Shown here piece by piece: positions 22,597 to 35,399 of a stretch of DNA of 35,495 bases. A program made the position numbers and the translations under genes. Source of the stretch: Burkholderiaceae bacterium (GTDB lineage: Bacteria; Pseudomonadota; Gammaproteobacteria; Burkholderiales; Burkholderiaceae_C); assembly GCA_004322085.1 (NCBI GenBank), contig SCRR01000259.1, forward strand, positions 1-35,495, read 5' to 3'. Position 1 is the first letter of the stretch; each line of letters opens with the position of its first letter. The notes under the pieces were generated by a model. That model searched no databases. It was not told where the DNA came from and worked only from the letters and a program-made list of their open reading frames with translations.

Positions 22597-23523
22597 TCAG
22601 CCCAGCTCGCTGCGGCGTGGCATGTCGGCACCGCGGCGCGAACAGGTGATGGCCGCGGCGCGCGCAGCAAAACCCAGCGCCAATTCCAGGTCGGCACTGG
22701 ACAGTGTTGCGAGCGCCGGCACCGACAACGCGTCGTGTTCGGCCAGCCAGGTCAGCAGCGCGGCCTGAAAGGTATCGCCGGCGCCCACCGTATCGACTAC
22801 CTCGACCGGGGTCGTCGGCACGGTGGCGCAGGCGTTCGGCGTGCAGCCCACGACACCCCCGCTGCCGCGCGTCACGACGGCCAGCTTCACGCCGTGGCTC
22901 AGTGCCCGGCGGGCGAACTCTTCAGGGGTGACGCCGGGCAGAAGCAGTTGCAGGTCTTCTTCGCTGATCTTGAGCAGGTCGGTGCGCGTGAGCATCCATT
23001 GCAGCATGTCCCCCCAGCGTGTCAGATCGGGCTCCACATTCAGGCGGATGTTGGGGTCGTAGGCGATCAGCGTGCGCCCATGTTCGCGCTCGACCAGTGC
23101 GCGCAGCGTCGAAGCCGTCGGCTCCACCACTGTGGCAAAGGAGCCGAGGTGGATCGCGTCGATGTCCTGGGGCAACGAGGCCAGCGCGGCGGTCGTGAGC
23201 AGGCGGTCGGCACAGCCCTGGCCGTAGAAGGAATACGAAGGCACGCCCTGGGAATCGACGCCAACGAGCCCGAGCGTGGTCGGCGCGTCCATGCGCTGTA
23301 CCGCCGAGGTATCGACTCCCTCGGCCACGAGCGTTTGCACCAATCGCTCGCCGAGGAAGTCCCGGGACACCGCTGAAAAAAAAGCCACCGGTTGCGCGAG
23401 CCGCGCCAATCCGACCGCCGCGTTGAACGGCGACCCTCCTACTCGGGCGTCCAGGGTCATGCCTGCAGCGGTGGGGCCGACCGCAAACACGTCCATCAAT
23501 GCTTCACCGCAGACAACGAACAT
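22597..23523 (-). CDS. PfkB-family sugar kinase, probable fructokinase
   Basis: Ribokinase/PfkB kinase, 308 residues from ATG 23523 (MFVVCGEALMDVF, the usual beginning of this group). An upstream ATG at 23616 would add 31 residues that do not look like the fold. The N-terminal substrate loop VGGSPFNAAVGLARL and the C-terminal ATP/anion-hole motif DTVGAGDTFQAALL with the catalytic Asp are both intact. It probably phosphorylates fructose to fructose-6-phosphate, inferred from its divergent position to the frcBCA-type importer and pgi. The 25-base palindrome at 23629 lies in its upstream region and may control it too. It converges with dnaE2. Confidence 0.85.
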   Translation of the reverse strand: MFVVCGEALMDVFAVGPTAAGMTLDARVGGSPFNAAVGLARLAQPVAFFSAVSRDFLGERLVQTLVAEGVDTSAVQRMDAPTTLGLVGVDSQGVPSYSFYGQGCADRLLTTAALASLPQDIDAIHLGSFATVVEPTASTLRALVEREHGRTLIAYDPNIRLNVEPDLTRWGDMLQWMLTRTDLLKISEEDLQLLLPGVTPEEFARRALSHGVKLAVVTRGSGGVVGCTPNACATVPTTPVEVVDTVGAGDTFQAALLTWLAEHDALSVPALATLSSADLELALGFAARAAAITCSRRGADMPRRSELG

Positions 23524-23628
23524 GACACAGCTTTCATTCGGGTTGAGGGGCGTCATCACAGCGCGCGGCAGGAATGGCAACGGGTCAAGCATGCCTGCTT
23601 TTATTTTTTCGGGCATCAGGGTTTTCCA

Positions 23629-23653
23629 TTAATAAATCGCCTTGATTTATTAA
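23629..23653. promoter_or_regulatory. Perfect 25-base palindromic operator (candidate ROK regulator site)
   Basis: Arms TTAATAAATC (23629-23638) and GATTTATTAA (23644-23653) are exact reverse complements around a 5-base spacer. It lies between the divergent kinase and importer genes and overlaps the importer's -35 element, a classic repressor position. AT-rich palindromes are typical of NagC/Mlc-type ROK operators, and a ROK regulator is encoded in the same gene set. Confidence 0.75.
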
Positions 23654-23670
23654 TTAATAGCTCCGATACT
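23642..23670 (+). promoter_or_regulatory. Candidate promoter of the sugar importer operon
   Basis: TTGATT (23642-23647) and GATACT (23665-23670), spaced exactly 17 bases. The -35 lies inside the palindromic operator. The leader to the frcB-like ATG is about 90 bases. Confidence 0.6.
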
Positions 23671-23763: not shown

Positions 23764-24762
23764 ATGAAACTCAAGAACGCCACTGTCCTTGCCGCCCTGC
23801 TGGCCAGCGCCGGCCTCGCGATCGCTGCCGACGCACCAGTCATCGGCCTGATCACGAAAACCGACACGAACCCCTACTTCGTGACCATGAAGAAAGGCGC
23901 AACAGCCGAGGCGACCAAGCTGGGCGCCAAGCTACTCACTGCCGCCGGCAGGATGGATGGCGACAATGCCGGGCAGGTCACGGCCATCGAGAACATGGTG
24001 GCTGCGGGTGCCAAGACGATCCTGATCACGCCGAGTGACGCAAAGGCCATCGTGCCCTCGATCAAGAAGGCCGAGGCGCAAGGCGTCATGTTCATTGCGC
24101 TGGACAGTCCGACCGAACCGATGAGCGCGGCCAATGCGCTGTTCGCAACCAACAACTACACGGCCGGCGAGTTGATCGGCGAGTACGCCAAGGCCGCGAT
24201 GGCGGGCAAGCCCGTGAAGATCGCCATGATGGACCTGTTTCCTGGCAATCCGGTCGGTGCACAGCGGCATAACGGTTTCATGAAGGGCTTTGGAATGAAG
24301 GCTGCGGACGCCTCCAGCAATGAACTGTCCACCAACCCTGCCATCGTGTGCTCGGCCGACAGCTACGGCGACCAGGCCAAGGGTCAGACCGGGATGGAGA
24401 ACTGCCTGCAAAAGGACCCCGGCATCAACCTGGTCTACACCATCAACGAACCGGCGGCAGCCGGTGCCTACCAGGCACTGAAGTCAGCCGGCAAGGAAAA
24501 AGGCGTGTTGATCGTGTCGATTGACGGCGGCTGCAAGGGTGTGGAAAACGTGAAGGCCGGGGTGATCGCGGCAACCTCCCAGCAGTACCCGCTGAAGATG
24601 GCCGCCATGGGCGTGGAAGCGGGCGTGAACTTCGCGAAGACAGGCAAGAAGGTCAGCGGCTATACCGACACTGGCGTCACGCTGATCACCGACAAGCCAA
24701 TCACAGGCGTCGCCAGCAAGGACACCAAGTTCGGCATGGACATGTGCTGGGGCAACAAGTAA
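23764..24762 (+). CDS. frcB: Sugar ABC transporter periplasmic substrate-binding protein, FrcB-like
   Basis: Periplasmic binding protein of 332 residues with a Sec signal (MKLKNATVLAALLASAGLAI, cleavage near AIA-AD). The mature protein is the type I, ribose-binding fold: PVIGLITKTDTNPYFVTMKK, GAKTILITPSDAKAIVPSIK, VMFIALDSPTEP and TINEPAAAGAYQALKSAGKE. ATG 23764 has AGGAGA upstream; an open frame extends further 5' but without a ribosome site. Fructose is the favoured ligand because the operon has a single-domain ATPase like FrcA and a nearby kinase and pgi. Ribose or mannose are alternatives. Confidence 0.85.
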   Translation: MKLKNATVLAALLASAGLAIAADAPVIGLITKTDTNPYFVTMKKGATAEATKLGAKLLTAAGRMDGDNAGQVTAIENMVAAGAKTILITPSDAKAIVPSIKKAEAQGVMFIALDSPTEPMSAANALFATNNYTAGELIGEYAKAAMAGKPVKIAMMDLFPGNPVGAQRHNGFMKGFGMKAADASSNELSTNPAIVCSADSYGDQAKGQTGMENCLQKDPGINLVYTINEPAAAGAYQALKSAGKEKGVLIVSIDGGCKGVENVKAGVIAATSQQYPLKMAAMGVEAGVNFAKTGKKVSGYTDTGVTLITDKPITGVASKDTKFGMDMCWGNK

Positions 24763-24836: not shown

Positions 24837-25799
24837 ATGTCCATCACCAAACCTTCATGGCTGCCACCCGTGGCCACGCTCGGCCCGCTGATCGCGTTGC
24901 TGCTCGCAGTGATCTTCTTTGCCATGCAAAGCGACCGATTCATGTCGGTGCAGAACTTTTCGCTGATCTTGCAGCAAGTCATGGTGGTGGGACTGATTGC
25001 CATCGGCCAGACGCTGATCATCCTGACCGCAGGCATTGATCTGGCGTGCGGTGCGGTGATGGCGCTGGGCGGCATCGTGATGACCAAGCTGGCCGTGGAC
25101 AGTGGCATGAATCAGTACCTCGCGATCGTATGCGGGATCCTGGTTTGCATGGCGTTCGGACTGATCAACGGTCTGCTCGTCACCCGCATCCGGCTGCCGT
25201 CGTTCATCGTCACCCTGGGCACCCTGAACATCGCCTTCGCGTTCACCCAGCTCTACTCGGGCGCGGAGACGATTACCGGCCTGCCGCCGGCCATGACCTT
25301 CTTTGGCAACACGTTCCGGCTCGGCAACGCGGAAATCAACTACGGTGCCCTGCTGATGCTATTGCTGTACCTCTTCATGTGGTGGTGGTTGCGCGAGACT
25401 CAGCCCGGGCGTCATATCTACGCGGTCGGCAATAACCCGGAGGCCACCCGCCTGACCGGTATCGCGACCGACAAGGTGCTGCTCGGCGTGTATGTGACCG
25501 CCGGACTCTTTTATGGCATCGCCTCACTGCTGTCGGTGGCGCGAACCGGTGTGGGTGATCCGAATGCCGGGCAAACCGAAAACCTGAGCGCGATTACGGC
25601 GGTGGTGCTGGGCGGCACCAGCCTGTTCGGGGGCCGCGGCATGATCCTGGGCAGCCTGATCGGCGCCTTGATCGTGGGCGTGTTCCGCAATGGACTCACG
25701 CTGATGGGGGTGTCTTCTGTCTACCAGGTGTTGATCACCGGCATCCTGGTCATTCTGGCGGTGACTACTGATCAACTCTCACACAAAGGGGCACACTGA
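24837..25799 (+). CDS. frcC: Sugar ABC transporter permease, FrcC-like
   Basis: Inner-membrane permease of 320 residues in the BPD_transp_2/RbsC family, with eight or more hydrophobic segments starting at LIALLLAVIFFAMQ. Family blocks: GQTLIILTAGIDLACGAVMA, LPSFIVTLGTLNIAFAFTQL, the EAA-like loop GNNPEATRLTGIATDKVLLG, and AVVLGGTSLFGGRGMILGSL. GGAGA precedes the ATG. Its stop overlaps the ATPase start by one base, so the importer subunits are translationally coupled. Confidence 0.93.
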   Translation: MSITKPSWLPPVATLGPLIALLLAVIFFAMQSDRFMSVQNFSLILQQVMVVGLIAIGQTLIILTAGIDLACGAVMALGGIVMTKLAVDSGMNQYLAIVCGILVCMAFGLINGLLVTRIRLPSFIVTLGTLNIAFAFTQLYSGAETITGLPPAMTFFGNTFRLGNAEINYGALLMLLLYLFMWWWLRETQPGRHIYAVGNNPEATRLTGIATDKVLLGVYVTAGLFYGIASLLSVARTGVGDPNAGQTENLSAITAVVLGGTSLFGGRGMILGSLIGALIVGVFRNGLTLMGVSSVYQVLITGILVILAVTTDQLSHKGAH

Positions 25800-26602
25800 T
25801 GAGCACAGCCAATCAAACCCCGGCGCTCGTAATGGAAGCGCGCGGACTGGTCAAGCGGTACGGCCACGTCACCGCGCTCGACGGCAGTGATTTTGAATTG
25901 CGTGCCGGCGAGATCATCGCGGTGATCGGCGACAACGGCGCCGGCAAGTCTTCGCTGATCAAGGCGCTGTCGGGTGCCACGATCCCCGACGAGGGCCAGA
26001 TCCGGCTGGACGGCAAGGTCATCCATTTCAAGTCACCCATCGATGCGCGCCGCGAAGGCATCGAGACGGTCTATCAGGACCTTGCGGTGGCACCCGCGAT
26101 GACGATTGCAGAGAACCTGTTCATGGGCCGCGAAATCATCAAGCCCGGCTGGTTCTCGCAGTTGCTGCGCGTGATCGACAAGAGGCAGATGCTGGAGCAG
26201 AGCATTGCGCGGATGAATGATCTCAAGGTCGGCATCCGCTCCATGACGCAGGCGGTCGAAACACTCTCGGGCGGGCAGCGCCAGTGCGTCGCCGTGGCGC
26301 GCAGTGCCGCGTTCGCCAGGCACGTCGTGATCCTGGATGAGCCGACGGCCGCGCTCGGCGTCAAGGAAGGCAACATGGTGCTCGAGCTGATCCGGCGCAT
26401 TCGCGACAAGGGCCTGCCGGTGATCCTGATCAGCCACAACATGCCGCATGTGTTCGAGGTGGCCGACCGCATCCATGTGGCCAGGCTGGGCAAACGCGCG
26501 GCCTTGCTGGATCCGAAAAAAATCAGCATGAGCGACACGGTGGCGGTCATGACGGGCGCCATGAGCCCGCAGGACATACCTGCAGACTGCCTGGCCCATT
26601 GA
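25799..26602 (+). CDS. frcA: Sugar ABC transporter ATPase, FrcA-like
   Basis: ATP-binding subunit of 267 residues with a single nucleotide-binding domain, as in FrcA and unlike the double-domain RbsA/XylG ATPases. Walker [10 protein letters not shown] (44-52), signature LSGGQ (156-160), Walker B VVILDE (176-181), switch His in LISHNMPHV. It starts in a TGATG overlap with the permease gene. A truncated fucU reading frame follows 10 bases later. Confidence 0.92.
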
Positions 26603-26612
26603 GGACGCGACG

Positions 26613-26771
26613 ATGCTCAAGGGAGTCGATCCGCTGCTCTCGCCCGAGATGCCGAAGTTATTGTGCGAGATGGGGCACGGCGACGAGATCGTGCTGGCTG
26701 ACGCGAACTTCGCGGCCGCCTCGCTCGGGCGCGGCAAACTACTGGCGATCGCCGGGGAGCTTCGCAAGTGA
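26613..26771 (+). pseudogene. Truncated FucU/RbsD-type sugar mutarotase
   Basis: ATG 26613 begins [20 protein letters not shown] and continues [20 protein letters not shown], a near-perfect match to the N-terminus of the FucU mutarotase family. It then ends after only 52 residues ([11 protein letters not shown]) against about 140-150 normally. The conserved C-terminal half is absent, so the enzyme cannot be functional as such. The stop overlaps the ROK gene's GTG start (GTGA), which suggests the stub may survive to couple translation. The likely history is an in-place deletion. Confidence 0.8.
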
Positions 26772-28009
26772 ACGAAGCACGCATTGCGGCGACGCCGACT
26801 GAAGCCCGGTTACGACCACGGGGCTCCAACCAGGTCGGCATGCGGCAGTTCAACGAGCGGGTTGTGCTGCAGGCGATCCGGCTGCAGGGGAGTTGTCCGA
26901 AGGCCGAAATTGCGCGCCTGACGCATTTGACGGCACAGACCGTGCAGCTCATCATTGGTCGTCTGGAGGCTGATGATCTGGTGCGAAAACTGGCGCCCGT
27001 GCGTGGCAAGGTCGGCCAGCCCTCGGTGCCGATGGCACTCAACCCGGACGGTGCGTTCTCCATTGGTGTGAAGATCGGTCGCCGCAACGCGGATATGTTG
27101 CTGGTGGACTTCACGGGCCAGGTTCGCGAGCGCCTGTCACTGAGCTATCCGTTCCCCGATCCACTCAAGCTATTCGGCGACATCGACGCCGGGCTGCGGC
27201 AACTGCGCAAGTCGCTCACACCCGCGCTGCGCAAACGCCTGCACGGCATCGGTGTTGCTGCCCCGCTGTCGCTCGGCGGCTGGAAGGTGCTTCTTGGCAT
27301 CACACCCGAACTCGCGCAAGAGTGGAATGACATCGACATGTGCGAGCGAATCGCCTCGCTGGATGGCGCTGCCGGGCTGCCGGTCGAGTTCGTCAAGGAC
27401 ACGGCCGCCGCCTGCGTGGCGGAGTTGGTGGCGGGTCGCGGCCGCAGCGTGCGCAGCTTCCTGTACTTCTTTGTCGACACCTTCATTGGCGGCGGCCTGG
27501 TGCTTGACAGCCACCTGTTCGGGGGCCTCAACGGCAACGCCGGTGCGGTGGGTTCGCTGCCGCTGGGTCTGAGCACCACCGCCGGCATGCCGCCCGAACA
27601 ACTGCTCAACGTCGGTTCGCTGTGGAACCTGGAAGCCCTATACGCCAAGGCCGGCATCGACACGGGCGCCTGGGTCGATGCGCGCGCGCTGGACGCGCCC
27701 TGGCTGGCGAGCACGCAAGCCTGGCTGGACCGGGCCTGCCCGGCCATTGCGCTGGCCATCAACAGCGCTGCCTGTCTGCTCGATCTGGGTGGCGTGATTA
27801 TTGACGGCTCCTTCGGCCGCGAATTGCTGGCGGCGCTGGTGCCTGGGGTCGAACGAGCACTCGACCTTTACAACTGGGAAGGTGCAGCACGGCCCAGGGT
27901 GCTGGCCGGCACCATTGGCAGCGACGCGCGTGCCATAGGTGGCGCACTGCTGCCGTTGTACGCGAATTTCGCGCCGGATCGGGATTTGTTCCTGAAAGTT
28001 GACCCTTGA
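26768..28009 (+). CDS. ROK-family transcriptional regulator
   Basis: 413 residues with an N-terminal winged helix-turn-helix (about 27-75: [20 protein letters not shown], then [19 protein letters not shown]) and a C-terminal ROK sugar-kinase-like domain ([49 protein letters not shown]). Likely a sugar-responsive repressor of the importer and Entner-Doudoroff genes, acting at the palindrome at 23629-23653. The zinc-binding CxCGxxGC motif usual in ROK proteins is missing after [12 protein letters not shown], seen also in other Burkholderiales-type sugar ROK regulators from memory. GTG start overlapping the fucU stub stop. Confidence 0.9.
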
Positions 28010-28019
28010 AAGAGACTGC

Positions 28020-29660
28020 ATGATGAACTCGCCGGAAAGCAATTCGATGCAACGAGAGATGATTTTTCATCGCTGTGACCGGACCGACGCGTGGAAGGTG
28101 CTGCAACGCCATTACGAGACACAGGGCCGCAGATTCAATCTGCGCGATGCCTTCGCGCGTTCCGCTGACCGATTCGAGATCATGAGCGTGCAGGCTCCGG
28201 AGGTCTTTGCCGACCTGTCGAAGAATCTGCTGGACACTGCGACGCTGCAACTCCTGCTCGATCTGGCGCGCGAGTGCGGTGTCGAAACCCGGCGTGCCGC
28301 CATGTTCGCCGGCCAGCCCGTCAACACGACCGAAGGGCGTGCGGTACTGCACACGGCGCTGCGCGCGCCCAAGGGGCAGGGCCCTTTCAGCGACGACGTT
28401 CATCGTGTGCTCGATGCGATGCTGGCTTACGCCGAGACCGTGCGCGACACGGCAACAAGCGGCATTCGGCACATCGTCAACATCGGCATTGGCGGCAGCG
28501 ATCTGGGGCCACAGATGGTGGTTCCGGCGCTCGACGCGTTCGCCCACCGGGGCTTGACGTTCCACTTTGTCTCGAATGTCGACGGCCACGACATCGTTCC
28601 CACTCTGCGGGGCCTGAAGCCGGCCGAGACCCTGTTTGTCATTGCCAGCAAGACCTTCACCACACAGGAGACGATGGCCAACGCGCATGTCGCGAAGGAC
28701 TGGTTCGTAGCCAACGGTGGCACCGACACGGCCCGGCAATTCGTTGCCGCCACAACCAACGTGAAGGCCGCCGCTGAATTCGGCATCACCACCACCTTTG
28801 GCTTCTGGGACTGGGTCGGTGGGCGCTACTCGCTCTGGTCCGCCATCGGGCTGCCGATCGGACTGGCCATCGGTGCGGAGCATTTTTGCGCGCTGCTCGC
28901 CGGAGCCCACGCGATGGATCGCCATTTTGCCGAAGCGCCGGCGCACAGGAACCTGCCGCTGCTGCTCGGGTTGCTCGATGTCTGGTACCGCAACTTCCAT
29001 GGGTTCACAAGCCGCAGCGTGGCGCCGTACCACCAGGGCCTGCGGCGACTTCCGGCCTATCTGCAGCAGCTCGAAATGGAGAGCAACGGCAAATGTGTCG
29101 ATCTCGGCGGCGAGCCGCTGCCCTTTGCCACCAGCCCGGTGGTGTGGGGCGAGCCGGGAACCAACGGACAGCACGCCTACTTCCAGATGCTGCACCAGGG
29201 CACGGACGTGATTCCGGTCGAGTTCATCCTGGTGAAGACGCCGGCGCATCCTTTGCACGACCTGCACGCCAAGCTCCTCGCGAACGGCCTGGCGCAGTCG
29301 CAGGCGCTGATGCGGGGCAAGTCCAGCGCCGAGGCCCTAGGCGAAAAGGCGTCGACGGCGTCGGCGGCGCTGGACCCGCTGGTGCTGGCGAAGCACCGCA
29401 GCTTTCCCGGCAATCGCCCCAGCACGACATTGATCCTGGATGAACTCACGCCGACGAGTCTGGGCGCACTGATTGCGCTTTACGAGCACCGCGTCTTCAC
29501 CAGTGGCGCCGTGTGGGGCATCAACAGCTTCGACCAGTGGGGTGTGGAGCTGGGAAAGGCGCTGTGCGCGGACCTGCTTCCGCGCCTCGCAAAGGACGGC
29601 GACCTCGACGGCATCGACGCCTCGACGGCCGGACTCATTCAACGATTGCGAGCGGCCTAG
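28020..29660 (+). CDS. pgi: Glucose-6-phosphate isomerase
   Basis: Interconverts fructose-6-phosphate and glucose-6-phosphate; 546 residues, normal length. Signatures: NIGIGGSDLGPQMVVPAL, SKTFTTQETMANA, WVGGRYSLWSAIGLPI, YHQGLRRLPAYLQQLEMESN, and GINSFDQWGVELGK near the C-terminus (PGI signature 2). ATG 28020 lies 10 bases after the ROK stop with AAAGAGAC upstream; the second ATG at 28023 is equally possible. In this operon it likely carries F6P from the kinase up to G6P for Zwf, feeding the Entner-Doudoroff branch. Confidence 0.95.
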   Translation: MMNSPESNSMQREMIFHRCDRTDAWKVLQRHYETQGRRFNLRDAFARSADRFEIMSVQAPEVFADLSKNLLDTATLQLLLDLARECGVETRRAAMFAGQPVNTTEGRAVLHTALRAPKGQGPFSDDVHRVLDAMLAYAETVRDTATSGIRHIVNIGIGGSDLGPQMVVPALDAFAHRGLTFHFVSNVDGHDIVPTLRGLKPAETLFVIASKTFTTQETMANAHVAKDWFVANGGTDTARQFVAATTNVKAAAEFGITTTFGFWDWVGGRYSLWSAIGLPIGLAIGAEHFCALLAGAHAMDRHFAEAPAHRNLPLLLGLLDVWYRNFHGFTSRSVAPYHQGLRRLPAYLQQLEMESNGKCVDLGGEPLPFATSPVVWGEPGTNGQHAYFQMLHQGTDVIPVEFILVKTPAHPLHDLHAKLLANGLAQSQALMRGKSSAEALGEKASTASAALDPLVLAKHRSFPGNRPSTTLILDELTPTSLGALIALYEHRVFTSGAVWGINSFDQWGVELGKALCADLLPRLAKDGDLDGIDASTAGLIQRLRAA

Positions 29661-29687
29661 GACGAACGTTCCCGAGGCCGCCACGCC

Positions 29688-31181
29688 ATGGAAAGCAGCA
29701 TGTCATTCGATCTCGTCTTTTTCGGCGGTACCGGCGATCTGGCCTGGCGCAAGCTGATGCCCGCCCTGTTCCAGGCCTTTCGTCACGGCAAGCTACCGCC
29801 CGGCGGGCGTATCGTTGCGGTCGCATGGGAAGATTTTGCCGATGACACCTATCGCATCTGGCTGAAGGAGCGTTTCCACGACGTCGAGGGCGCCAAGCGG
29901 CCCAGCGACGAGGAGTTCGCGCGCTTCGCCGTGCTGGTGCGCTACTTACGAGTCGACTTGTCAAAGCCCGAGGACTATGTCCGGCTGCGGCAATGGCTGG
30001 ACGGGCCGCGGGACGTAGAGGGTCACGGCGCGGATTCGGCGGAAACGGTGGTGCTTTACCTGGCCACCAGCCCGCACCTGTTCCCGCAGATCTGCCAACA
30101 ACTCGGCGCGGTCGGACTGAACGGACCGAACGTGCGCGTGGTGCTCGAAAAGCCGCTCGGGCACGATCTGGAAAGCGCACAGGAAATCAACCGCGTGGTG
30201 CGCTCGGTGTTCAGCGAAACTCAAGCCTTTCGCATCGACCATTACCTGGGCAAGTCGGCGGTGCAGAACCTGATGGCGCTGCGCTTCGGTAATGCGCTGT
30301 TCGAGCCGCTGTGGCGCCGCGAAAGCATCGCCAACATCCAGATCACGCTGGCCGAGCAACTCGGCGTGGGTACGCGCGGTGACTTCTACGATCGCACCGG
30401 CGCGTTACGCGACATGATCCAGAACCATGCGCTGCAATTGCTGACGATGATTGCGATGGAGCCGCCTTCGCGCAACGATGCCAACGCGATTCGCGACGAG
30501 AAGCTGAAGGTCCTGCATGCGCTCAAGCCGTTCACCGAGGACAACGTGCTGCGCGATGTGATACGCGGCCAGTACCGCCGCGGCACGGTCGGCGGCCAAC
30601 CCGTACCTGGCTATCAGGAAGAAGCGAAAGTGCCATCGCACAGCCACACCGAGACCTTCGTCGCGCTGCGAACCGAGGTGCAGAACTGGCGCTGGTCGGG
30701 CGTGCCCTTCTACCTGCGCACCGGCAAGCGTCTGGCAGCGCCCGAAGCGCAGATCGTGGTGAATTTCCGTCCCGCGCCACACCGTATCTTCCCGGGTGCG
30801 AACGTGCCGAACAAATTGGTCATCAAGCTGCAGCCTGAGGACGGCCTGGAGCTGCACCTGCTGGCGGCCAAGGGATCCGGCCCATCGGAAGCGCTGTCGC
30901 CGGTGTGCCTCGATCTCGATTTCGACGAGGCTTTCGCCGAGAACCGGGTAGGCGGCTACGAGCGCCTGCTGCTGGAGGCGATTGCCGGTCGCCTGAACCT
31001 GTTCGTGCGCAGCGACGAGCAGGAACAGGCCTGGCGCTGGATCGAACCCGTATTGCGCGCCTGGGAGCGCGACAACGATATCTCCGGCGGTCCTCGCTCC
31101 TATCCCGCCGGCACCTGGGGGCCCGCGGCGGCCAGCGCGCTGGTGGCGCGCGACGGCTTCGCATGGCCCGAGGAACAGTGA
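29688..31181 (+). CDS. zwf: Glucose-6-phosphate 1-dehydrogenase
   Basis: Oxidises G6P to 6-phosphogluconolactone with NAD(P)+; 497 residues. N-terminal dinucleotide motif DLVFFGGTGDLAWRKLMPAL, active-site block RIDHYLGK at 182-189 with the catalytic His, and VPFYLRTGKRL. The start could equally be ATG 29700 (MSFDLVFF), which has GGAAAG four bases upstream; 29688 has a more distant GAGG. It lies 27 bases after pgi. No 6-phosphogluconolactonase gene is adjacent, unusual for such operons. Confidence 0.95.
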   Translation: MESSMSFDLVFFGGTGDLAWRKLMPALFQAFRHGKLPPGGRIVAVAWEDFADDTYRIWLKERFHDVEGAKRPSDEEFARFAVLVRYLRVDLSKPEDYVRLRQWLDGPRDVEGHGADSAETVVLYLATSPHLFPQICQQLGAVGLNGPNVRVVLEKPLGHDLESAQEINRVVRSVFSETQAFRIDHYLGKSAVQNLMALRFGNALFEPLWRRESIANIQITLAEQLGVGTRGDFYDRTGALRDMIQNHALQLLTMIAMEPPSRNDANAIRDEKLKVLHALKPFTEDNVLRDVIRGQYRRGTVGGQPVPGYQEEAKVPSHSHTETFVALRTEVQNWRWSGVPFYLRTGKRLAAPEAQIVVNFRPAPHRIFPGANVPNKLVIKLQPEDGLELHLLAAKGSGPSEALSPVCLDLDFDEAFAENRVGGYERLLLEAIAGRLNLFVRSDEQEQAWRWIEPVLRAWERDNDISGGPRSYPAGTWGPAAASALVARDGFAWPEEQ

Positions 31182-31210
31182 CGGCACCACGCCTGTATCG
31201 AGAGGAACGA

Positions 31211-32842
31211 ATGATGAGAAACACTGAAAACCTGAAGCAACTGTTCCCCGGCCCGGGCGAGATTCCACTGGAACACCGCCTGGCGTCGCCGATTCACCAG
31301 CGAACTTACCTGGTCGGCGGCGAGTTCAAGACCTGGAATGGAGCGTGCAAGACGGTGCTGTCGCCGATCTGTGAACAGCAGCCCGATGGCACCGTTCAGC
31401 AGCTCGAAATCGGCAGCTATCCGGTGATGGGCGAGGCCGAAAGCGACGCCGCGCTGGACGCCGCGGTCGCCGCCTATGACAGCGGGCGCGGAGAATGGCC
31501 GACGATGCCGGTAGCCGCGCGCATTGCCTGCATGCAGGACTTCGTGCGGCAGATGGTCGCGCAGCGCCAGACCATCGTCAGCCTGATCATGTGGGAGATC
31601 GGCAAGAGCCTGGCCGATTCGCAAAAGGAGTTTGACCGCACGGTCGAATACATCGTCGCCACCATCGAAGCGCTCAAGTCGCTCGACAACAATGCCTCGC
31701 GCTTCGAGATCGCCGACGGTACCATCGGCCAGATCCGGCGCACACCGCTGGGCGTGGTGCTGTGCATGGGGCCCTACAACTACCCGCTCAACGAGACCTT
31801 CGCCACCCTGATCCCGGCGCTGCTGATGGGCAACACGGTGGTGTTCAAGCCGCCGCAGTACGGCACGCTTCTGTTCTGGCCTTTGGTGGAGGCGTTCCGC
31901 AGCGCTTTCCCGTGCGGCGTGATCAATACTATCTACGCGCCGGGTGCCGTGGTGGTTCCGCACATGCTGGCCAGCGGCAAGATCAGCGTGCTGGCGCTGA
32001 TTGGCTCCAGCAAGGTGGCCGACCACCTGAAGAAGCAGCACCCCAAGTCGCACCGGCTGCGCGCCGTCCTGGGTCTGGACGCCAAGAACGCAGCGATCGT
32101 GCTGCCCGATGCCGACCTCGACCTCACAGTCAAGGAGTGTCTGCTGGGCGCACTCTCCTTCAACGGCCAGCGTTGCACGGCGCTCAAGATGCTGATCGTG
32201 CACCGCTCGATCGTCGAAGAGTTCCTGCGCCGCTTCACCGAAGCCGTCGGCAAACTCAAGGTTGGCATGTCGTGGGAGCCGGGCGTCAGCATCACGCCGC
32301 TGCCGGGGCTGCACCGCACAGCCTACATGACGGAGGCGATCGAGGACGCCAAGGCCAAGGGTGCCCAGGTGGTCAACGAAGGCGGCGGAGCGTACTGCGC
32401 AACGCTTTACTACCCGGCCGTGGTGTATCCGGTGAGGGAAGGTATGAAGCTCTACCGCGAGGAGCAGTTCGGCCCGTTGGTCCCGGTCATGGCCTACGAC
32501 GAGGTCGAAGAGGCGCTCCAGTATGTGATCAGCTCCGACCACGGCCAGCAGGTCAGCGTGTTTGGCAACGACCCGGTGCAGATCGGCGCCCTGGTCGATC
32601 CGCTGGTTAATCAGGTGTGTCGTGTCAACCTGAACTGCCAGTGCCAGCGCGGGCCCGATGTGTTCCCGTTCGCGGGGCGCAAGGATTCGGCCGAGGGCAC
32701 CCTGTCGGTGAGCGACGCGTTGCGCGCCTTCTCGATCCGCTCGATGGTCGCGGCCAAGCAGACGCAGGCCAGCAAGCGCCTGCTTGACGGCATCGTGCGC
32801 GACCACCGCTCGAACTTCGTCAACACGGGCTTCATTCTGTGA
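31211..32842 (+). CDS. gapN: GapN-like NADP-dependent glyceraldehyde-3-phosphate dehydrogenase (aldehyde dehydrogenase family)
   Basis: Aldehyde dehydrogenase of 543 residues, most like non-phosphorylating GAPDH (GapN), which oxidises glyceraldehyde-3-phosphate to 3-phosphoglycerate with NADPH formation and no ATP. Visible: [32 protein letters not shown], catalytic Cys322 in [10 protein letters not shown], and a GapN-like C-terminus [20 protein letters not shown]. The usual ELGGK general-base motif reads LGLDAKN (287-293), so Gly288 replaces Glu, with Asp290 two residues on. ATG 31211 has GAGAGGA upstream; the frame is open much further 5' inside zwf by chance. Its place between zwf and edd supports a role downstream of KDPG cleavage. 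Confidence 0.85.
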
Positions 32843-32874
32843 ACGAGGCCGGATTCACGTCAGGAGGTTCCAAA

Positions 32875-34772
<1,898 letters not shown>

Positions 34773-34776
<4 letters not shown>

Positions 34777-35399
34777 ACATTCTCGAGCTGATGCGCACCG
34801 GCCCCGTGATTCCGGTCATCGTCATCGACCAGCTGGAGCAGGCGGTGCCGCTGGCCCGGGCGCTGGTGGCGGGCGGTGTCCGCGTGCTGGAGCTGACTCT
34901 GCGCACGCCGGTGGCGCTGCAAGCCGTCAAGGATATTGCCGAGCAAGTCGAGGGGGCGATCATCGGTGTTGGCACCATCACGCGGCCGCAGGATTTCGAG
35001 CGCTCGATCGAGGCCGGCGCGATTTTCGGCGTGAGCCCGGGGCTGACGCTGGAACTCGCCGCCGCGGCGAGCGCCAGCGGCTTGCCGCTGCTGCCCGGGG
35101 TAATGACCCCGTCGGATGTGATCGCCGCGCGTGCGGCCGGTTTCACCGACTTGAAGCTCTTTCCGGCGCAACAGGCCGGTGGCGTGGGCATGCTGAAAGC
35201 CCTGAGTGGCCCGTTCCCGGATATGACCTTCTGCCCGACAGGCGGCATCAACGCCGCCACAGCGCGCGACTTTCTGGCGCTGCCCAACGTGGCCTGCGTC
35301 GGTGGTTCCTGGCTCACCCCAGCCGATGCCGTGGCTACCGGCGACTGGGCACGCATCACCGCGTTGGCCCGCGAGACAGTGGCCTTGCGCGATGCCTGA
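34773..35399 (+). CDS. eda: KDPG aldolase (2-dehydro-3-deoxy-phosphogluconate aldolase)
   Basis: Cleaves KDPG to pyruvate and glyceraldehyde-3-phosphate; 208 residues. Class I aldolase with the Schiff-base Lys128 in DLKLFPA, Glu40 and Arg44 in LELTLRT, and GVGTIT and PTGGIN phosphate-binding segments. It starts inside the edd stop (ATGA overlap) and is preceded by GGGAGA, so edd and eda are translationally coupled. Confidence 0.96.

Follow-up and report, generated by a model that had tools for sequence, protein, structure and literature searches.

A candidate ROK-family operator between a divergent sugar kinase gene and an frcBCA Entner-Doudoroff operon in Burkholderiaceae

Genes, palindrome and promoter of the locus

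The window (the whole 35,495-nucleotide stretch of Burkholderiaceae DNA analysed here) contains a sugar kinase gene on the minus strand and, divergent from it, a run of plus-strand genes extending from frcB to eda. A palindrome and a promoter lie between the two. The features of the locus are as follows:

22597..23523, minus strand: PfkB-type sugar kinase, predicted fructokinase, divergent; likeliest start 23523 (MFVVCGEALMDVF), open frame reaching 23616
23618..23627, no strand assigned: conserved, one-sided block AGGGTTTTCC, abutting the predicted operator on its kinase side
23628..23654, no strand assigned: predicted operator, perfect inverted repeat ATTAATAAATC-gcctt-GATTTATTAAT, centre 23641, predicted ROK dimer site
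23642..23647, plus strand: -35-like hexamer TTGATT of the frcB promoter, within the right arm and the most conserved part of the site
23665..23670, plus strand: -10-like hexamer GATACT, 17 bp from the -35
23764..24762, plus strand: frcB-type sugar-binding protein (Peripla_BP_4), first gene behind the promoter
24837..25799, plus strand: frcC-type permease (BPD_transp_2)
25799..26602, plus strand: frcA-type ATPase (ABC_tran)
26613..26771, plus strand: RbsD/FucU mutarotase gene remnant of 52 codons (PF05025, E 1.8e-10)
26768..28009, plus strand: ROK-family regulator (rok), 413 aa, proposed operator binder
28005-29660, plus strand: pgi
29688-31181, plus strand: zwf
31208-32842, plus strand: aldehyde dehydrogenase (aldh)
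32875-34776, plus strand: edd
34767-35399, plus strand: eda

The longest gap in the operon, 165 bp between frcA and rok, is filled by the mutarotase remnant and contains no promoter match, and from rok through the 28005..35399 set to eda the genes either overlap or are separated by at most 33 bp. Since the long gap is a gene remnant and the later gaps are this short, one promoter could serve the entire set from frcB to eda. The mutarotase gene between frcA and rok is full-length (150-154 aa) in four related loci (L106, L107, L108 and L118).

A sequence-only reading of this DNA had described a perfect 25-base palindrome over the -35 of a promoter with ideal spacing. The palindrome is real and is longer by one pair on each side, with perfect arms of 11 bp around a 5-bp spacer for a total of 27 bp. 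The position of the -35 and the 17-bp spacing likewise hold, and "ideal" suits that spacing but not the hexamers, as TTGATT and GATACT each match only 4/6 positions of the sigma70 consensus; for this reason a simple promoter scan that required 9/12 matches had no entry there. Within the 35-kb window, four inverted repeats with perfect arms of at least 10 bp and a spacer of at most 15 bp were found against 1.4 expected, and one with perfect arms of at least 11 bp against 0.3 expected; for the 240-bp intergenic region, 0.15% of Markov shuffles gave arms of at least 11 bp. The palindrome by itself is therefore mildly unusual, and weak evidence in 35 kb. Pattern searches for the motif found no second copy within 3 mismatches in either the window or the genome (3.6 Mb, about 90% complete), and a looser pattern returned additional genomic matches that were all poor.

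The protein encoded at 26768-28009 matches the ROK domain PF00480 with 49.8 bits against a Pfam gathering score of 22.9. Its N-terminus matches MarR_2 and HTH_24 with scores slightly under the gathering thresholds, and residues 18-90, which are conserved in orthologs, align with the helix-turn-helix (HTH) regions of 7rhe, Lmo0178 and Mlc. A cysteine zinc cluster, CxCGxxGC, following an ExGH motif is typical of NagC and Mlc and is not universal among ROK proteins. Residues 250-310 of the present protein contain no cysteine, its alignment to Mlc stops at residue 254, and its scores fall below the NCBIfam equivalog cutoffs for NagC and Mlc (37.9 vs 650 and 29.7 vs 530 bits). By these sequence measures the 413-residue regulator is a member of the ROK family and is neither NagC nor Mlc.

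Conservation and rearrangement of the site among relatives

Comparison of anchored 27-mers shows a dyad of 25-27 bp lying 85-135 bp before frcB in 16 orthologous loci (the window counted; nearly all from Burkholderiales). Across these loci, mirrored positions are complementary in 79% of cases at the dyad centre and in no more than 62% at any other centre, and compensating change at one mirrored pair of columns, 4 and 22, exceeds that in shuffles, a comparison in which relatedness was left uncorrected. Conservation is weaker in the left arm than in the right, where the overlapping -35 accounts for some of it. Every orthologous locus also has a -10-like hexamer 17-18 bp from the overlapped -35, with a mean of 4.4/6 consensus matches against 2.4 in shuffles (0/2000 shuffles as high), and these kept hexamers independently back the predicted frcB promoter. 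Burkholderiales that retain frcBCA-rok keep the palindrome, whose absence from such relatives had been named in advance as evidence against its role. In G126, G304, G290 and their sister clade the motif is shifted, so the specificity of the binder probably drifts.

In L118 (G064) the operator occurs twice before frcB, and the rok gene seems to be split into frames or duplicated. A tandem pair of operator-like sites about 20 kb from rok is present in L190 and L192 (G126 and G229). The actinobacterial frcB orthologs of Catenulispora (L027 and L028; 66-67% identical) carry LacI-type GGAAACGTTTCC palindromes instead, and their transporter appears to have switched regulator.

Amongst 401 genomes of the family, a ROK ortholog (E <= 1e-60) was identified in 102 and a site differing from the pattern by at most one mismatch in 101; both were present in 91, only the ROK gene in 11, only the site in 10 and neither in 289, for an odds ratio of 239 in a test that ignores phylogeny. 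Of 66 sites that share a contig with rok, 62 lie upstream of it at a distance of 2.9-3.7 kb. Two of the site-only genomes (G323 and G378) have kinase, site and frcB at contig ends, a third (G059) is nearly complete and has a fair site and no ROK, and the remaining seven contain single-mismatch matches on one strand. A weaker site, at the expected place or near rok, was found in four of the ROK-only genomes (G260, G353, G293 and G359), and five others (G119, G128, G170, G234 and G308) have, next to a different transporter, a ATTAGTAAAACTACTAGGTTTA(C/T)TTA-like variant with the same geometry. The last two are G142, in which ROK is present with no good site, and G409, whose contig ends at the locus.

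The variant operator, ATTAGTAAAACTACTAGGTTTAYTTA, has unchanged geometry and was found at six loci (L115, L206, L207, L209, L210 and L213, from G038, G119, G128, G170, G234 and G308), where related ROK proteins adjoin a different ABC transporter and zwf is adjacent in some. We considered a clean co-evolution of ROK clade with motif and set it aside; the variant-operator group needs three changes on the ROK tree, which leaves only partial support for such co-evolution.

Because the co-occurrence test ignores phylogeny, loci at which the operon has been rearranged weigh more. In G214 the order is pgi-aldh-zwf-kinase, site, frcBCA-rok, with the genes joined behind a single site. Its congener G291 has two sites, one at frk/frcB and one in front of the zwf-aldh-pgi operon, which lies apart on the same contig. 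G341 has no frcBCA beside rok, and its site is located between the kinase gene (frk) and rok. In G126 and G304 the site falls between divergent rok and frcBCA-kinase, rok being followed in G126 by zwf and edd. G059 has lost frk, frcBCA and rok, and a copy of the site with three changed bases precedes zwf and adjoins the LacI-type gene that flanks rok in congeners; this layout is what a deletion of frk and frcBCA-rok would be predicted to leave. Further afield, the alphaproteobacterial locus L033 encodes a 39%-identical ROK protein divergent from frcB and has a site (score 30), and the site score is at most 15.4 at eleven other distant frcB loci with no such ROK gene in their 5-kb flanks.

By separating the ROK gene from the transporter, these rearrangements point to ROK as the probable binder, and they likewise point to zwf, aldh and pgi as likely targets in their own right. 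The linkage to rok and the rearranged loci thereby lend support to the proposal that ROK regulates the palindrome, and the rearranged loci, with a second copy before the moved zwf-aldh-pgi genes, to the proposal that the operator governs the Entner-Doudoroff (ED) set. A search for the palindrome before other sugar genes, suggested as a check, drew a blank in this genome and succeeded in G291, where that second copy lies.

The kinase side of the operator

Although the kinase frame could open at 23616, relatives point to a start at the MFVVCGEALMD codon, 23523, which is the likeliest because the relatives' start there has a ribosome-binding site and the longer frame is not kept. In the genus of the window ~105 bp separate the kinase start from the operator, and in the window itself the old ATGGAAAACCC start, next to the operator, is out of frame. 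In six relatives (G006, G015, G019, G026, G051 and L026) the ATG of the divergent kinase gene overlaps the outer edge of the operator, so the kinase transcript must originate either inside the operator or upstream of it; these relatives encode a different PfkB kinase, with about 30% identity to that of the window. Zwf genes, accompanied by edd, pgi or aldh, are found on the kinase side in L026, G290 and G214 and on the frcB side in the window, such that the ED genes, wherever they are attached, are located behind the predicted operator. The kinase ATG overlap in relatives and the occurrence of ED genes on either side favour the earlier suggestion that one operator acts in both directions. On the minus strand of the window we found no sigma70-like promoter, and its kinase promoter was not located.

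Two non-orthologous PfkB kinases occupy the same divergent position in different lineages, as seen when L152, L155, L156, L110, L111 and L026 are set against 22597-23523 of the window. The MENP-type kinase has its ATG at the operator edge and no visible Shine-Dalgarno sequence.

The block abutting the operator on this side, AGGGTTTTCC, corresponds in the six relatives to the reverse complement of ATGGAAAACCC, or of a similar sequence, at the kinase start. It also persists at loci lacking a kinase start in that position (L024, L025, L104, L109, G059 and the zwf-side site of G291), so coding does not explain AGGGTTTTCC, and we ruled out that the GGGTTTTCC block is mere kinase coding sequence. 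A GGG recurs at the same distance where the rest of the block differs (G126, G304 and G290). We raise, tentatively, the possibility of a composite element in which the ROK operator is joined by a separate block (AGGGTTTTCC, or variants with GGG ~20 bp from the centre) that may be the site of a second factor or an asymmetric ROK contact. If so, the kinase of several relatives would be translated from an mRNA that starts inside the operator and has no Shine-Dalgarno sequence.

Proposed mechanism and comparison with known systems

The palindrome is, in all likelihood, the operator of the operon's own ROK-family regulator, an FrcR-like fructose repressor. With a dimer or tetramer of ROK on the inverted repeat, the -35 in front of frcB would be covered and RNA polymerase blocked; we infer that ROK acts by repression, not activation, such that frcBCA-rok-pgi-zwf-aldh-edd-eda would be shut off while it is bound. 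Transcription of the divergent kinase gene, from a promoter presumed to lie in the window, would also be blocked, because the gene is transcribed out of the same region as the frcB promoter. Release of ROK would be brought about by a fructose-related, presumably fructose-derived, signal, and a single switch could in this way govern the uptake, phosphorylation and breakdown of fructose.

Three other explanations of the locus were weighed against this one. A coincidental symmetry, arising in an AT-rich promoter made up of a UP element and the -35, might be argued from the number of long chance arms that 35 kb can hold, but the conservation centred on the dyad across genera rules out a chance AT-rich palindrome, and with mirrored covariation, linkage to rok and the second copy before the relocated zwf genes added, we give the idea almost no credence. 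It is improbable, too, that another regulator, such as a global factor or the LacI-type neighbour of rok, binds the site and that ROK merely travels along with it. G059, where the site and the LacI-type gene are kept and ROK is gone, fits such a binder, as does the finding that rok and the transporter genes are mostly inherited together; against this, the LacI-type protein of G059 shares 86-87% identity with its counterpart next to rok in G291 and G214, its congeners, and a search with it gave no match in the other loci covered. We rejected the LacI neighbour as the binder because only one genus has it next to rok and because G059 looks deletion-derived. ROK also occurs with the site and without frcBCA in G341, and among distant frcB loci those without a flanking ROK gene have no site and the alphaproteobacterial one with ROK has it.

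The remaining explanation concerns the reach of the regulator. In the window ROK may control the frcB direction only, with the kinase expressed constitutively from its own promoter nearer 23523, as the ~105-bp distance of the kinase start in this genus, the out-of-frame old start and the lack of a detected sigma70-like promoter on the minus strand would allow. This seems unlikely, given that kinase transcription from upstream of or inside the operator would still be blocked, that the kinase open reading frame begins at the operator edge in six relatives and that in G291 and G059 the kinase side of the operator faces zwf.

The site has the features by which ROK operators are recognised, namely an AT-rich inverted repeat of ~22-28 bp over a sugar-gene promoter or start codon, and its assignment to an ordinary bacterial kind, the ROK operator, is well supported by sequence comparison. 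It offers a concrete, testable predicted operator for fructose/Entner-Doudoroff operons in about a quarter of the family genomes sampled and the rearrangements of the operon in several lineages make the locus a useful natural series on how an operator follows its target genes. Literature searches on FrcR plus ROK found no description of this operator.

The general layout of ROK sites has been summarised previously (PMC4856308). Similar to NagC and Mlc of E. coli, the present system pairs a ROK-domain protein, with a probable N-terminal HTH, with an AT-rich inverted repeat that has T-rich and A-rich ends, and its operators lie over sugar-uptake promoters. It differs from them in that the half-site TTGATTTATTAAT is distinct, the targets are ABC rather than PTS systems, and the cysteine zinc cluster is absent. 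The Streptomyces coelicolor protein RokB has an inverted-repeat site of ~28 bp on PnovH that overlaps a start codon (PMC4856308), much as the operator overlaps the kinase start in six relatives, but the motif is another one, the spacer is 11 bp and the RokB regulon is believed to concern amino acids. HexR controls zwf, edd and eda jointly in gammaproteobacteria (PMC5343134); it is an RpiR-type regulator, whereas the linked regulator here is a ROK protein and the ED genes stand in one operon with the transporter. A parallel in gene content is the frc locus of Sinorhizobium meliloti, where frcBCA and genes for a kinase and a mutarotase are linked to FrcR, a putative negative regulator (PMC10433430), and the operon in the window even retains a mutarotase remnant. 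There, frcRS and frcB are divergently arranged and two promoters serve frcBCA, whereas here rok lies downstream within the operon and the ED genes are attached to it.
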